Below are positions 13,762-39,595 of a DNA stretch of 42,524 bases, piece by piece. The translations under genes were made by a program, and so were the position numbers. The notes beneath the pieces were generated by a model that was not told the origin of the DNA, ran no database searches, and saw only the letters and a list, made by a program, of their open reading frames with translations. Every line of letters begins with the position of its first letter. Position 1 is the stretch's first letter. The DNA comes from Flavobacteriaceae bacterium (GTDB taxonomy: Bacteria > Bacteroidota > Bacteroidia > Flavobacteriales > Flavobacteriaceae), in assembly GCA_023257625.1 (NCBI GenBank), contig JALRBW010000038.1, positions 1 through 42,524 on the forward strand, written 5' to 3'.

Positions 13762-14562
13762 TTAAATCTTTTTAGTGTAAAAATTTATAAACGCTTCCTC
13801 GTTTTTTGACGCTGCAAAATCCAAGTGGGGTTTTTTGTTTTTCTTTACAAGTTCAATTACTGATTCAGGTAAATTTTCAGAAGACAAAATTACTCCATGG
13901 GAATGTTGAATTGCAATTTCTGATAAGGCCTCGTAAGTTGCATTTTGAAGAGGTATCATCATGTTTGATTTTATATTATCAAAGGCCACTTTTTCTTCAA
14001 AATTTTCTGAAAAAACGCCTTCAAAATCAGGAGCATAAATAGAAGTTACTATCTTACTTTCAGCAAACAATGGCTCATCTGCATAAAATGTTTTTAAATA
14101 TAGTGGAAATAAGGATGTAAACCATCCATGAAGATGGATAACATCTGGTGACCAATTTAATTTTTTTACAGTTTCTATGACTCCTTTGGTAAAAAATATC
14201 ATGCGTTCATCATTATCACTATAGCATTTTTTGTTTTTATCATGTAATAATGCTTTCCTTTTGAAAAATTCTTCATTATCAATAAAATAAACTTGAATAC
14301 GCTCTTTAGGAATGGAAGCCACCTTTATAATTAAGGGAGTATCCATATCGTTAATAACTAAATTCATGCCTGATAAACGAATTACTTCATGTAATTGATG
14401 TCGTCTTTCATTAATTAAACCATAGCGAGGCATAAATATTCGTGTTTGCCCTCCATGGTCATTAATAGCTTTTGGTATTTGGAATGAATTAACAGCTTGT
14501 TCTGTTTGAGGAAGATAGGGAACAACCTCTGAAGAAATGATTAATACGCGCTTATCTTTCAT
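13762..14562 (-). CDS. Half-length glycogen/starch synthase-like protein (GT5 N-terminal domain only)
   Basis: The 266-aa protein resembles the N-terminal Rossmann domain of GT5 glycogen synthases: RVLIISSEVVPYL at the start, GGQTRIFMPRYGLINERRHQ, and DVIHLHGWFTSLFPLYLK, which fits the conserved HxHGW region. It lacks two things a real glycogen synthase needs: the KTGGL ADP-glucose motif after SEV (here LPQTEQAVNS) and the whole C-terminal GT-B domain (family length about 470 aa). The stop is clean and the downstream sequence does not continue the domain, so this is not a simple frameshift. Similar short proteins are, from memory, conserved in Flavobacteriaceae beside DUF4270 genes. Function unknown; glycogen synthesis is unlikely. 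It leads a two-gene operon with the DUF4270 lipoprotein. Confidence 0.82.
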   Translation of the reverse strand: MKDKRVLIISSEVVPYLPQTEQAVNSFQIPKAINDHGGQTRIFMPRYGLINERRHQLHEVIRLSGMNLVINDMDTPLIIKVASIPKERIQVYFIDNEEFFKRKALLHDKNKKCYSDNDERMIFFTKGVIETVKKLNWSPDVIHLHGWFTSLFPLYLKTFYADEPLFAESKIVTSIYAPDFEGVFSENFEEKVAFDNIKSNMMIPLQNATYEALSEIAIQHSHGVILSSENLPESVIELVKKNKKPHLDFAASKNEEAFINFYTKKI

Positions 14563-22914: not shown

Positions 22915-25900
22915 GTGAAGTTTAACGAATACAAAGGGCTTAATTTACCTCAAATAGCTTCAACTGTTTTAGAAAAATGGAAACAAGAAGGCACGTTTGA
23001 GGCTAGCATTTCTCAACGAGAAAGGCAGAAAGCTTTTGTTTTTTATGAAGGTCCTCCATCTGCCAATGGAATGCCTGGAATTCATCATGTTATGGCACGA
23101 ACCATTAAGGATATTTTTTGTCGCTTTAAAACTCAAAAAGGGTTTCAAGTTCATCGAAAAGCTGGGTGGGACACCCACGGATTGCCTGTTGAACTTGGGG
23201 TTGAAAAGGAATTGGGAATTACAAAAGATGCCATTGGAAAAAGTATTTCAGTAGCTGACTATAATGCAGCTTGTAAAGAAGCCGTAATGCGCTACACTGA
23301 TGTATGGAATAACCTAACCGAACGAATTGGGTACTGGGTAGATATGAAAGACCCATATGTTACTTATACTCCAAAGTATATGGAATCAGTTTGGTGGTTA
23401 ATTAAACAAATTTATTCGAAAGGCCTACTTTATAAAGGGTATACAATTCAACCCTATTCTCCTATGGCGGGAACTGGATTGAGTTCGCATGAATTAAACC
23501 AACCTGGAACGTACCAAGATGTTAGTGATACTACTGTTACAGCGCAATTCAAAACAATTCAAAGTTCTCTTCCAGACCATTTAAAATCTGATATTCCTTT
23601 GTATTTCCTTGCTTGGACAACAACTCCGTGGACATTACCTTCCAATACAGCTCTCACCGTTGGAAAAAAAATTGAATACGCTATTATAAATACTTACAAT
23701 CAATATACATTTAAACCCATACGTGTAGTATTAGCTAAAACACTTATAAATAAACAATTTGGGAAAAAATATGAGCATCGAGAAATTATAACTGAATATA
23801 CTCCTGAAGATAAAATCATACCCTATACTATTGAGAAAACAATTTTAGGGTCAGCTTTATTAGATATTCGTTACGAACAATTATGGGCAGAGGCTCCGCT
23901 TCCACTGACACATCCTGAGAATGCATTTCGCGTGATTGCTGGTGATTTTGTTACAACTGAAGAAGGTACTGGAATCGTTCACACTGCACCTACCTTTGGA
24001 GCAGATGATGCTAAGGTGGCTAAAGAAGCTCTCCCAGAAGTTCCCCCAATGTTAGTATTAGATGAAAATGGAAATCCTACTCCTTTAGTCGATCTTCAGG
24101 GCCGTTTTCGAAAAGAAGTAGGGGCCTTAGCTGGTCGGTATGTAAAACAAGAATATTACCCTGATGGCGAAGCACCCGAGCGCTCAACAGATGTTGAGAT
24201 TGCCATACAGCTTAAAGAAGAAAATAAAGCTTTTAAGGTCGAAAAATACGTTCACTCATATCCCAACTGTTGGCGAACCGATAAACCCATTCTATATTAT
24301 CCGCTTGACTCTTGGTTTATCAAAGTAACAGAGGTTCGAGATAAAATGACCTCTCTTAATAAAGAAATTAATTGGAAGCCAAAAGCCACAGGTGATGGTC
24401 GCTTTGGCAATTGGCTAGCCAATGCTAATGATTGGAATCTTTCTCGTTCTCGTTTTTGGGGAATTCCCCTTCCAGTTTGGAGAACAGATGACGGTTCGGA
24501 AACAAAGGTTATCGGCTCTGTTTCAGAATTGAAAAATGAAATTGATTTGGCTATAAACAAGGGGCTTATGCAGTTAAATCCCTTTGCTCAATTTGAAGAA
24601 AACAATACTGCTGATAGCAATTATGAAGTCGTTGATTTACATAAACATGTGGTAGATACAATAGTTTTATGTAGTAACTCTGGAAAACCAATGCTTCGAG
24701 AGCAAGACCTTATTGATGTTTGGTTTGACTCTGGAGCCATGCCCTACGCTCAGTGGCATTATCCCTTTGAAAACAAAGATCTTATTGATCAAGGCACCTA
24801 TTTTCCTGCAGATTACATTGCAGAGGGTGTAGATCAAACACGAGGCTGGTTTTATACTCTTCATGCCATTTCTACTCTTGTTTTTGGTAAAAAAGCATAT
24901 AAAAATGTGGTTTCAAATGGATTAGTTTTAGACAAAACAGGACAAAAAATGTCTAAAAGACTTGGAAATGCAGTAGATCCATTCGAAACCTTAGATCGCT
25001 TTGGCCCCGACGCAACAAGGTGGTACATGATTTCAAATGCTAACCCATGGGATAATTTAAAATTTGATATCGAAGGTATTGCTGAAGTACAGCGAAAATT
25101 TTTTGGGACATTATACAATACATATTCCTTTTTTAGCCTGTATGCAAATATTGATGGCTTTAATCCTTTCAATGAAAAAGAAATTCCATTGACTGAAAGA
25201 ACTGAATTAGACCGGTGGATTTTATCTGAGCTAAACAGTCTAATACAATCTGTTAATGCCGCTTATGAAGATTATGAACCTACTAAAGCCAGTAGGGCAA
25301 TTTCAGATTTTGTTCAAGAGCGACTTAGTAATTGGTATGTGCGTTTATCAAGAAGACGATTTTGGAAAGGTGAATTTGGTAGCGACAAAATTGCTGCTTA
25401 TCAGACTTTACATCATTGTTTAGTGTCTGTAGCTCAACTGGCTGCACCTATTGCACCTTTTTACACCGATCAATTGTACCAAGATTTAACTTTAGGACAA
25501 AAAGGATCTATTCACTTAAGTGATTTTCCAAAACCTGAAGTGAATACTATTGATCTTGCTTTAGAAGAACAAATTAATACTGCCCGAAGTCTTACTTCTT
25601 TAGCACTCTCCCTTCGGAAAAAGGAACAAATTAAAGTACGGCAACCCCTTCAAAAAATGATTATTCCTGTCAAAAATAAAGAGGAAAGAAATAGGATAGA
25701 ACGCGTTGCTGAACAGCTAAAAAGCGAAATTAATGTCAAAGAAATTGAATTACTTGACGACGCTAATAGTCTGCTAGTAAAAGAGATAAAGCCTAATTTT
25801 AAAGTTTTAGGTCCCCGCTTTGGGAAAGACTTAAAAGCTGTTGTTAATGCTATTGCAGCTTTGAATCCTTCTCAAATAGATACTCTTGAAGAAAAAGGTC

Positions 25901-26301
25901 AATTAGAAATTCAGATAAATGAAAAAAATAGTATTTTAGAGCGCTCTGATGTAGAAGTCTTTTTTAAAGACATTGAAGGCTGGGAAGTAGCACAAGGGTA
26001 TGGTTTAACCGTTGCCCTAGATATGACTTTGAGTCTCGAACTTAGAAATGAGGGGATGGCTCGAGAGTTGGTTAATCGCATCCAAAACTACAGAAAGGAA
26101 AGCGGTTTAGAAGTAACCGATAAAATTGAAATTTCATTGGTAGCTGAACCTGAATTAAAGATAGCAGTTTCTGAAAATTTAAATTATATACTTTCTGAAA
26201 CGCTGGCTAGAAAACTGCAATTCGAAACAGAAATTAAAGACGGATTGACAGTTGAATTTGATACAATTTTTGCAAAGATTCGAATTAAAAAGATATCCTA
26301 A
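22915..26301 (+). CDS. ileS: Isoleucyl-tRNA synthetase, IleS2/eukaryotic-like type with GxHH motif
   Basis: Charges tRNA-Ile with isoleucine. The 1128-aa product is long, like the IleS2 (eukaryotic-like) type rather than the E. coli type (938 aa). The HIGH signature reads GIHH (residues 55-58, in PPSANGMPGIHHVMARTIKD), so the first and third positions are swapped compared with HxGH. GWDTHGLPVE follows as in IleS2. The editing domain (TTPWTLPSNTALTVG) is present, and the KMSKS loop is KMSKR (678-682, in TGQKMSKRLGNAVDP). GTG 22915 starts the canonical KFNEYKGLNLPQ. An ATG-AAA-TAG triplet lies 8 nt upstream (22898-22906). It leads the ileS / DksA-like / lspA operon, common in Bacteroidota. Confidence 0.97.
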   Translation: MKFNEYKGLNLPQIASTVLEKWKQEGTFEASISQRERQKAFVFYEGPPSANGMPGIHHVMARTIKDIFCRFKTQKGFQVHRKAGWDTHGLPVELGVEKELGITKDAIGKSISVADYNAACKEAVMRYTDVWNNLTERIGYWVDMKDPYVTYTPKYMESVWWLIKQIYSKGLLYKGYTIQPYSPMAGTGLSSHELNQPGTYQDVSDTTVTAQFKTIQSSLPDHLKSDIPLYFLAWTTTPWTLPSNTALTVGKKIEYAIINTYNQYTFKPIRVVLAKTLINKQFGKKYEHREIITEYTPEDKIIPYTIEKTILGSALLDIRYEQLWAEAPLPLTHPENAFRVIAGDFVTTEEGTGIVHTAPTFGADDAKVAKEALPEVPPMLVLDENGNPTPLVDLQGRFRKEVGALAGRYVKQEYYPDGEAPERSTDVEIAIQLKEENKAFKVEKYVHSYPNCWRTDKPILYYPLDSWFIKVTEVRDKMTSLNKEINWKPKATGDGRFGNWLANANDWNLSRSRFWGIPLPVWRTDDGSETKVIGSVSELKNEIDLAINKGLMQLNPFAQFEENNTADSNYEVVDLHKHVVDTIVLCSNSGKPMLREQDLIDVWFDSGAMPYAQWHYPFENKDLIDQGTYFPADYIAEGVDQTRGWFYTLHAISTLVFGKKAYKNVVSNGLVLDKTGQKMSKRLGNAVDPFETLDRFGPDATRWYMISNANPWDNLKFDIEGIAEVQRKFFGTLYNTYSFFSLYANIDGFNPFNEKEIPLTERTELDRWILSELNSLIQSVNAAYEDYEPTKASRAISDFVQERLSNWYVRLSRRRFWKGEFGSDKIAAYQTLHHCLVSVAQLAAPIAPFYTDQLYQDLTLGQKGSIHLSDFPKPEVNTIDLALEEQINTARSLTSLALSLRKKEQIKVRQPLQKMIIPVKNKEERNRIERVAEQLKSEINVKEIELLDDANSLLVKEIKPNFKVLGPRFGKDLKAVVNAIAALNPSQIDTLEEKGQLEIQINEKNSILERSDVEVFFKDIEGWEVAQGYGLTVALDMTLSLELRNEGMARELVNRIQNYRKESGLEVTDKIEISLVAEPELKIAVSENLNYILSETLARKLQFETEIKDGLTVEFDTIFAKIRIKKIS

Positions 26302-26678
26302 TGAGTACAAAAACTAGATATAATGATGCTGAACTTAAGGAATTTAAAACCTTAATAGAAGAGAAAATCCAGAAAGCTAAAGCCGATCTTGAATTGCTTA
26401 AAAGTGCTTATATGAATGATGGAAATAATGGCACTGATGACACAGCACCTACCTTTAAGGCGTTTGAGGAAGGCTCTGAAACTATGTCAAAAGAAGCGAA
26501 CACTCAGTTGGCTCTACGCCAAGAAAAATTTATTCGCGATTTAAAAAATGCCTTGGTGCGTATTGAAAATAAAACCTACGGAATTTGCCGTGTCACGGGA
26601 AATCTAATTGATAAAAAACGCTTGTATTTAGTCCCTCATGCTACCTTAAGTATTGAAGCTAAAAACATGCAAAGCTAA
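26301..26678 (+). CDS. DksA/TraR-family protein lacking zinc-ribbon cysteines
   Basis: The 125-aa protein resembles DksA/TraR regulators that bind RNA polymerase's secondary channel: an N-terminal coiled-coil region (about residues 10-90) and a degenerate C-terminal ribbon. The usual pattern YGxCxxCG..RL..P.A..CxxC is here YGICRVTGNLIDKKRL then VPHATLSIEA: Cys96 remains, but the other three ligands are Thr99, Ser117 and Ala120, so a Cys4 zinc site cannot form. The coiled-coil tip (GNNGTDDTAPT) contains acidic residues, as in DksA. Its ATG overlaps the ileS stop by 1 nt. A transcription-regulator role is inferred; RNA polymerase binding is not shown. Confidence 0.82.
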   Translation: MSTKTRYNDAELKEFKTLIEEKIQKAKADLELLKSAYMNDGNNGTDDTAPTFKAFEEGSETMSKEANTQLALRQEKFIRDLKNALVRIENKTYGICRVTGNLIDKKRLYLVPHATLSIEAKNMQS

Positions 26679-26681
26679 AAT

Positions 26682-27371
26682 TTGACCCCTCCGATTAAAT
26701 CTAAACTATCATATTTTAATTCCCGATGGGCCCTAGCGGTTATTGTGGGAGTGTTACTTATTGATCAGTGCAGTAAATTCTATATAAAACTCAATTACCC
26801 ACTAAGCGGCTATGGGGTTTCTCCGATATTGGATTGGGGATTTTTTAAAATTTTATTTGTTGAAAATAGTGGAATGGCAATGGGAACACAATTAAATGAT
26901 ATACTCCCTTTTGTTAGCGATGAACTTGCCAAATTAATTTTAACCCTATTTCGACTAATTGCCATTAGCGGTTTGGGTTACTGGTTATGGAAAACATTAA
27001 AAAAACAAAATGCAGTATTGTTAAGTTGGGCTTTGTCCTTAATCTTTGCTGGAGCATTAGGAAATATAATTGATTCCGTATTTTATGGTGTAATTTTTAC
27101 CGATAGTTATCGAAACATTGCCACCCTTTTCCCTGAACAAGGATATGCTCCTTTATTTTTTGGACATGTTGTAGATATGCTCCAATTTCCTTTGGTAGAA
27201 TGGGACTGGCCTGAATGGTTACCTTTAATTGGTGGAAAACATTTTTTATTTTTTCAATACATTTTTAATATTGCCGATGTAGCAATCAGTACTGGTGTAG
27301 GCATTTTAATATTCTTTAATAAAAAAATCTTTTCTAAGTCTGACCAAAGTAGTGAATTGCCTGTGGAGTAA
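26682..27371 (+). CDS. lspA: Lipoprotein signal peptidase (signal peptidase II)
   Basis: Inner-membrane aspartyl protease that cleaves the signal peptide of prolipoproteins; this window encodes likely substrates (DUF4270 and M23 lipoproteins). The 229-aa product has four membrane segments, with conserved VENSGMAMG, the first catalytic Asp in GNIIDSVFYG (D131) and the second in FNIADVAIS (D199). It is longer than E. coli LspA (164 aa) because of a long loop between the catalytic Asp residues (about 135-190), usual in Bacteroidota. Start TTG 26682 is 3 nt after the DksA-like gene. Its last 38 nt overlap, in convergent orientation, the end of the 5-formyl-THF cyclo-ligase gene. Confidence 0.95.
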   Translation: MTPPIKSKLSYFNSRWALAVIVGVLLIDQCSKFYIKLNYPLSGYGVSPILDWGFFKILFVENSGMAMGTQLNDILPFVSDELAKLILTLFRLIAISGLGYWLWKTLKKQNAVLLSWALSLIFAGALGNIIDSVFYGVIFTDSYRNIATLFPEQGYAPLFFGHVVDMLQFPLVEWDWPEWLPLIGGKHFLFFQYIFNIADVAISTGVGILIFFNKKIFSKSDQSSELPVE

Positions 27372-38219: not shown

Positions 38220-38888
38220 TTATATTTTTTTACCTTCTACAATTAGAACAAACTCTCCCTTTGGCGCGTGGGCTTCAAAATAAGAGATCGACTCTTTAAT
38301 TGAACCCCGAAATGTGGTTTCAAATTTTTTTGTCAATTCCCTAATAACAGCTATTTTACGATGTTCTCCAAAAAGGGGTAACATTTGAAGAAGGGTTTTT
38401 AAAATTCGATGAGGTGATTCATAAAACACCAATGTGCGTTCTTCATCCGCTAAAGTGAGAAACCTTGTCTGTCGGCCTTTTTTGGGAGGTAAAAATCCCT
38501 CAAAAATAAAACGATCACATGGAATTCCGCTTTGTACAAGAGCTGGAATAAGTGCCGTAGGGCCAGGTAAACATTGCACTTCTATACCTGCTTCAAGTGC
38601 TTCGCGAACAAGTAAAAATCCAGGGTCGGCTATCCCTGGTGTTCCCGCATCTGAAATCAAAGCTATTGTTTTTCCTCCCTTTAATTGGTCAATAATCTGG
38701 CCTACCTTTGAGTGTTCGTTGTGCATATGAAAACTTTTCATTGGTGTAGTAATTCCATAATGATGAATTAAAACACGACTCACCCGGGTGTCTTCTGCCA
38801 AAATCAAATCAGATTCCTTTAAAAGACGAATTGCTCTAAGAGTAATGTCTTCTAAATTTCCAATAGGGGTGGGAATAATATATATCAA
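38220..38888 (-). CDS. rsmI: 16S rRNA (cytidine1402-2'-O)-methyltransferase RsmI
   Basis: Methylates the 2'-O of C1402 in the decoding centre of 16S rRNA, using SAM. The 222-aa product has the diagnostic IPTPIGNLEDITLRAI (residues 5-20), AEDTRVSRVLIHHYGI, ISDAGTPGIADPGFLLV (SAM-binding tetrapyrrole-methylase fold) and FYESPHRILKTL. It is shorter than E. coli RsmI (286 aa), ending after the core domain (VEGKKI). It is followed by recJ and preceded by the unknown 225-aa gene after a 29-nt gap. Confidence 0.95.
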   Translation of the reverse strand: MIYIIPTPIGNLEDITLRAIRLLKESDLILAEDTRVSRVLIHHYGITTPMKSFHMHNEHSKVGQIIDQLKGGKTIALISDAGTPGIADPGFLLVREALEAGIEVQCLPGPTALIPALVQSGIPCDRFIFEGFLPPKKGRQTRFLTLADEERTLVFYESPHRILKTLLQMLPLFGEHRKIAVIRELTKKFETTFRGSIKESISYFEAHAPKGEFVLIVEGKKI

Positions 38889-38917: not shown

Positions 38918-39595
38918 TTATTGTTCATAGTGTTTTTGCAACACAGCAAAAAAACGGGCTTCTAGTTCAGGCTTCTCTTCCCAATGTGTATATTCTGATT
39001 TTACCTGATGGTAAATAAAATTTTGAACTTCTTCCCAAGTTTCATAAGTACTAATTTGAGAAAGTACACGCTCATAGTCACTTGCATTTTCCTCAAATAG
39101 ATATTTTACAAAGGCAATTCTGTCGTTTAAATCTATTGAAACAATTTTGGCAAATTGGTCGTTTAGATTTTTCTTTTTTGTACTTGAATCTGAAGAAACA
39201 CTAACGCTTTTCTTATCAGAGTCAAGCTCTACTTTTTCAAAAAAAACAGGAGCTTCGTTTGGAGTGTCAAAAAGCGGATCAAATTCGTTTGGGTCAGGCA
39301 TCTCTATTACCATGTTTTTTATAGTTTCAATCATAGGAGCTACCTCAAGGTTTTCTTCAATTGAACCCTGTTGTTCAGCAGGGGTTAACTGTGCAATAAC
39401 TTCATTGAGTTGATTCTGTTGTCTTTTCCATACTTCATTTGATGAGGAAGTAAACTGAGAAACCATTTGGTTATAAATAGAAATTTCATAAAGTTTTTGC
39501 AAGGTATTGTGAAGTTTTTGGGCATCCCAATCTTCTTGGTCTTGTACTATTTTTTGTGCCCATAGGATCAGTGCGTTTTTTAATTCTTCCGTCAT
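38918..39595 (-). CDS. Conserved hypothetical acidic protein upstream of rsmI
   Basis: 225-aa protein I cannot assign to a functional family. It has no signal peptide or membrane segment. It divides into a helical N-terminus (residues 1-75, LKNALILWAQKIVQDQEDWD), a low-complexity, Ser/Asp/Glu/Pro-rich linker (about 80-145, with SVSVSSDSSTKKK) and a conserved C-terminal helical block (NDRIAFVKYLFEENASDYER, then WEEVQNFIYHQVKSEYTHWE). I recall similar C-terminal blocks in other Flavobacteriaceae proteins. It is first in the minus-strand operon ahead of rsmI and recJ, and divergent from tdk. Codon use and composition fit the neighbours. Confidence 0.75.
   Translation of the reverse strand: MTEELKNALILWAQKIVQDQEDWDAQKLHNTLQKLYEISIYNQMVSQFTSSSNEVWKRQQNQLNEVIAQLTPAEQQGSIEENLEVAPMIETIKNMVIEMPDPNEFDPLFDTPNEAPVFFEKVELDSDKKSVSVSSDSSTKKKNLNDQFAKIVSIDLNDRIAFVKYLFEENASDYERVLSQISTYETWEEVQNFIYHQVKSEYTHWEEKPELEARFFAVLQKHYEQ

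Follow-up and report, generated by a model that had tools for sequence, protein, structure and literature searches.

Isoleucyl-tRNA synthetase (IleRS, encoded by ileS) loads isoleucine onto its cognate tRNA. According to the main text of Brkic et al. (2023, PMC10485003), the class I signature HxGH is replaced by a G/AXHH motif in 86 type 2 enzymes (IleRS2) among 379 IleRS, while no IleRS1 carries the swap. The motif is there tied to an up to thousand-fold higher Ki for mupirocin, with activity retained. The natural ALHH enzyme of Deinococcus radiodurans has a Ki of 6600 μM; two canonical type 2 enzymes have values of 0.20 and 1.08 μM, and one type 1 enzyme 0.00029 μM (PMC10485003). Streptomyces griseus IleRS2, for which a Ki of 10 mM has been reported (PMC4861432), shares the motif (PMC10485003). 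When GVHH was put into canonical IleRS2 the Ki increased to just 35 and 460 μM, compared with the 6600 μM of the natural ALHH enzyme, which makes the magnitude of the effect context-dependent; when the swap was introduced into two IleRS1 neither was active (PMC10485003). Catalysis there relies on the third histidine instead of the first, and in models this third histidine clashes with mupirocin (PMC10485003).

The ileS gene described here lies in the window, meaning the whole stretch of DNA that was analysed (42,524 nucleotides). The encoded enzyme is very probably the sole housekeeping type 2 IleRS of a Flavobacteriaceae-like bacterium and a natural GxHH form, the swap being ancestral and vertically kept. 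The preliminary description had pointed to a GxHH swap in an IleS2 and to a published link between such swaps and very high mupirocin resistance, a link that PMC10485003 indeed contains. Earlier publications thus cover the motif together with its mechanism and consequence, and as the feature also turns out to be normal in the sampled phylum, the novelty of the present case is low.

The ileS gene and its assignment to type 2

The features of the locus are collected in Table 1. The open frame starts with GTG and has no internal stop codons, and GWDTHGLPVE begins at residue 84. The length of 1128 amino acids and the GWDTHGLPVE following the motif stand as first described. Against TIGR00392 (isoleucine--tRNA ligase) the protein scores 975.9 bits (cut-off 621.4) over profile positions 4-858 of 861, and the Pfam domains tRNA-synt_1, Anticodon_1 and DUF5915 were found, the last at residues 934-1126.

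Table 1. Features of the ileS locus, with positions in the window.
Feature	Position	Strand	Basis or remark
ileS, isoleucyl-tRNA synthetase type 2 (IleRS2)	22915..26301	+	TIGR00392, 8c8w match, Pfam domains
Ser49, presumed counterpart of E. coli IleRS Tyr59, which acts in tRNA-dependent pre-transfer editing	23059..23061	+	GPP-x-[A/V]NG context
Class I signature in swapped order, G55-I56-H57-H58	23077..23088	+	Replaces HxGH; G55, H57 and H58 invariant
HYPFE, type 2 / eukaryote-like hallmark, residues 615-619	24757..24771	+	Hallmark according to PMC4861432
KMSKR, second class I signature, residues 678-682	24946..24960	+	K678, M679, S680 and K681 invariant in 21-row alignment
DksA/TraR-like protein	26301..26678	+	DksA-family matches below cut-offs; directly downstream of ileS, one-base overlap
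lspA, lipoprotein signal peptidase	26682..27371	+	NF011369 245.6 bits, cut-off 200

Type 2 enzymes are recognized by HYPFE and by the absence of the bacterial-type Tyr59 and of NKIL (PMC4861432). The window IleRS has HYPFE, no NKIL after the signature motif and no Tyr59, Ser49 being presumably at its place, and VMARTIKDIF follows GIHH. The sole cysteine beyond residue 586 is Cys835, in keeping with a type 2 C-terminal domain devoid of the zinc-binding motif. When it comes to solved structures, the nearest chain by sequence is 8c8w (Priestia megaterium IleRS2) at 786.2 bits, while the IleRS1 1ffy scores 312 bits. A structure of the protein was predicted from a 21-sequence alignment (mean pLDDT 84.9, pTM 0.74). 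The best Foldseek hit of this model is 8c8v, also P. megaterium IleRS2 (E 4.4e-99, 38% identity, rmsd 7.4 Å, over 1129 alignment columns with gaps counted), followed by the yeast, Thermus and Candida IleRS and then by type 1 enzymes such as 8c9f (E 5.5e-57) and 8c9e (E 2.2e-55) at 25% identity. Judged from these features together with the pairwise and fold scores, the window IleRS is assigned to type 2, and the IleS2/eukaryotic-like identity first proposed agrees with HYPFE, TIGR00392 and the P. megaterium IleRS2 scores.

Copy number and gene neighbourhood

The genome that contains the window is an assembly of 1,929,534 bases in 75 contigs (90.91% complete, 0.16% contamination). It has one match above the ileS cut-off, which is the window gene, while weaker matches were read as ValS, LeuS and MetG. 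The single ileS first reported for the window is also the only one found in the assembly, which, being 90.9% complete, might lack a second. This incompleteness, and the fact that some Bacillaceae have both IleRS types (PMC10485003), could be taken to mean that the window gene is a resistance copy of accessory or transferred origin, the sensitive and essential ileS having been missed by the assembly. Such a situation is very unlikely when the relatives are considered. Among the family genomes, the window genome included, 60 of 60 have one listed ileS over the cut-off (52 of them with 90% or more completeness and no more than 5% contamination; in four, one or two first-look candidates were left unscored).

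The gene order argues in the same direction. Out of 587 related loci in named genomes, the best 80 were compared with flanks of up to 4000 bases, which covers close relatives, and in all 80 the dksA-like gene follows ileS, with lspA present in 73. The zinc-finger match of the DksA/TraR-like protein in the window is slightly below the Pfam cut-off. The 80 loci include 42 with recO upstream of ileS and 21 with a related TonB receptor. Their titles name Flavobacteriaceae, Flavobacteriia or Bacteroidetes, or else genera that are presumably members of these groups, and the closest full-length relative among them, with 76% identity, is from an uncultured Bacteroidetes assembly. The organism itself is presumably a member of the Flavobacteriaceae.

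There is no sign of a mobile or accessory resistance gene in the window. Of its 37 frames of at least 100 amino acids 32 were scanned, the other five overlapping longer frames, and the scanned ones encode mainly housekeeping enzymes, DNA repair genes and TonB-type receptors. For one protein the match was confined to a domain of unknown function, and no mobile-element family came out best for any of the 32. The window contains no tRNA. A leader RNA upstream of ileS was sought, and no Rfam family reaches its gathering score anywhere in the window. Three other frames on the minus strand may be mentioned. The frame at 13762-14562 encodes 266 amino acids matching Glyco_transf_5, which is the first half only of a glycogen/starch synthase, the second half being absent, and it is divergent from panC. 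A 222-amino-acid homologue of the 16S rRNA cytidine-2'-O-methyltransferase at 38220-38888 covers model positions 1-223 of 275, and a 225-amino-acid frame at 38918-39595 matched neither NCBIfam nor Pfam at the thresholds applied.

Distribution of the GxHH signature

In-frame translation of 23047-23109 gives EGPPSANGMPGIHHVMARTIK, residues 45-65 of the window IleRS, and G-I-H-H is thus found at residues 55-58 in place of H-x-G-H as originally described. This corresponds to the order G/A-hydrophobic-H-H of the G/AXHH IleRS2. The residues G55, H57 and H58 are unchanged throughout a 21-row alignment that includes sequences down to 45% identity. Three other class I synthetases read in the window genome have the normal HxGH order, namely HMGH, HVGH and HIGH, and would by their weak matches be ValS-like, LeuS-like and MetG-like, respectively.

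The loci examined number 142, namely the window gene (L001), L006-L114 and L133-L164. GxHH was read in 137 of them, the window gene included, while the remaining five (L110, L158, L160, L161, and L162) do not contain the signature part of an ileS, and L162, which matches weakly, looks like a ValS. No canonical HxGH IleRS was found among the loci read. At the position taken to correspond to Tyr59, 111 of the 137 have Ser and 26 have Thr. The assignment of Ser49 to this position is tentative, being based on the surrounding GPP-x-[A/V]NG and on the E. coli sequence. PMC4861432 describes the role of this tyrosine in tRNA-dependent pre-transfer editing and gives Phe or Thr, but not Ser, as its usual replacement in type 2 enzymes.

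The second class I signature is more variable. KMSKR is found in the window IleRS and in 100 of the 109 close-relative loci L006-L114, of which eight have KMSKS and one is unread; by group, KMSKR and KMSKS number 25 and 4 of the 29 GxHH enzymes in L006-L034, and 75 and 4 of the 80 in L035-L114, where the unread one belongs. KMSKS dominates the more distant loci L133-L162 (n=30), with 23 KMSKS, two KMSKR, one KMSKK and four unread, and GxHH wherever readable. A coupling between KMSKR and GxHH was rejected, as GxHH enzymes carry KMSKR, KMSKS or KMSKK.

The spread in the phylum was assessed with a DNA pattern encoding [A/V]-N-G-x-P-G-hydrophobic-H-H in 296 genomes drawn evenly from the phylum. 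The pattern is present in 295 of the 296 and in 140 of 140 genera, a count of genomes that match at the DNA level rather than of ileS genes identified one by one. For genomes with a completeness of 90% or more and a contamination of 5% or less the figure is 292 of 292, and the table for the 296 genomes has no match to the reversed pattern used as control. The sole genome without the pattern (G291, 88% complete) has IleRS residues 757-1100 only, at the start of a contig, and was missed because the signature end of the gene is lacking from that contig, which begins at residue 757. A first pattern that required ANG had matched 192 of the 296 and suggested a patchy distribution. Of its 104 misses 30 were examined; the stretch lies outside the fetched locus in four (L158, L160, L161, and L162) and was readable in 26, all of which have PTVNGxPGxHH. 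The patchy reading was dropped as the corrected [A/V]NG pattern gives 295 of 296.

An HxGH pattern, covering ANG forms, matches 41 of the 296 genomes and its reversed control two. All 41 listed places read ANG-x-L-H-x-G-H and look like methionyl-tRNA synthetases, since the MetG-like locus of the window genome reads TNGPIHIGH. When it comes to extra copies of the GxHH pattern, those in G002 (17-codon frame) and G183 (38-codon frame) were rejected as chance. The third, L163 at 261-782 on the minus strand of a 5580-base contig of G115, is an N-terminal IleS fragment of about 75 residues that runs into an unrelated frame, and G115 has a full ileS elsewhere. The frame near this fragment is presumably transposase- or integrase-like. 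With two of the three extra copies due to chance and one a gene fragment, chance matches do occur, but rarely.

In the phylum as sampled, GxHH is what one normally finds, in this organism as in others, and the pattern in 295 of 296 genomes does not support the peculiarity to this gene implied by the preliminary description. What could be a striking motif is normal for the phylum, and a false lead is thereby removed. From this distribution we read the swap as ancestral in the phylum and vertically kept, neither a recent nor a local resistance mutation. Antibiotic pressure has been proposed for the emergence of GXHH in general (PMC10485003), and the swap might by extension be seen as having arisen recently or locally in this organism as a response to a mupirocin-like antibiotic. 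This is improbable to a high degree, as the swap, found in 295 of 296 phylum genomes, long predates the organism so that no local origin is needed, and as there is no HxGH relative among the 137 loci with a readable stretch. An assembly or sequencing artefact is refuted by the relatives and has a negligible probability, the same GxHH being read in 137 of 142 loci and the other five being without the stretch, and together with the phylum count this means that GIHH is neither chance nor a sequencing slip.

In the literature searched we found no claim of a phylum-wide fixation of the swap, but the tree or the supplement of PMC10485003 may well contain it.

Proposed mechanism and comparison with known systems

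By analogy with other published enzymes, His57 at the third position of the ancestral and vertically kept GxHH form would assume the transition-state role that the first histidine has in HxGH enzymes, the type 2 active site offering space for a histidine there. The same residue would be expected to clash with bound mupirocin and to move the Ki towards millimolar values. Isoleucine activation by the window IleRS should then be normal and its binding of mupirocin very weak. Retained isoleucine activation we infer from the sole ileS found and from its conservation, and hyper-resistance at the level of the enzyme is likely. Resistance of the whole, Gram-negative cell would also depend on uptake or efflux. 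No Ki or MIC of mupirocin for Bacteroidetes, Bacteroides or Flavobacterium was found in the literature searched, which included PMC7564983. A table in PMC10835994 has, as a listing, the IleRS of a Flavobacteriaceae member among resistance-related genes under mupirocin.

If GxHH is fixed in the only IleRS of the phylum, the phylum should be insensitive to mupirocin at the target. A wider interpretation, to which we give an even chance, is that throughout the phylum the essential IleRS, present in a single copy, carries the swap as a fixed feature. The whole phylum would then activate isoleucine without the first HIGH histidine and be intrinsically hyper-resistant at the enzyme level, and the swap would be kept by active-site architecture and history and not by present mupirocin exposure. 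If true, this bears on the selectivity of mupirocin in mixed communities, and also on the question of how a histidine at the core of catalysis can be shifted by two places with function preserved.

Among known systems, the G/AXHH IleRS2 of S. griseus and D. radiodurans (Brkic et al., 2023, PMC10485003) are also type 2 with the first and third HxGH positions swapped. They are from other phyla, while the window enzyme, known here from its sequence, has Ile as X and 1128 amino acids; the word stem "bacteroid" is not in the main text of PMC10485003. The solved structures nearest to the window IleRS by both sequence and fold are those of P. megaterium IleRS2 (8c8u, 8c8v, 8c8w, and 8c9d). The wild type of that enzyme has the canonical HVGH (PMC10485003) and chains of at most 1032 residues, unlike the GIHH and 1128 residues found here, and its His582 (PMC10485003) aligns with Leu670 of the window IleRS. 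MupA and MupB (NF000257 and NF000258) are type 2 relatives against which the window IleRS scores 738 and 742 bits, far under their cut-offs of 1900 bits, and its gene order recurs in relatives. IleRS1 from Staphylococcus aureus (1ffy and 1qu2) and P. megaterium (8c9e) share the reaction and the overall fold with the window enzyme, at lower similarity.
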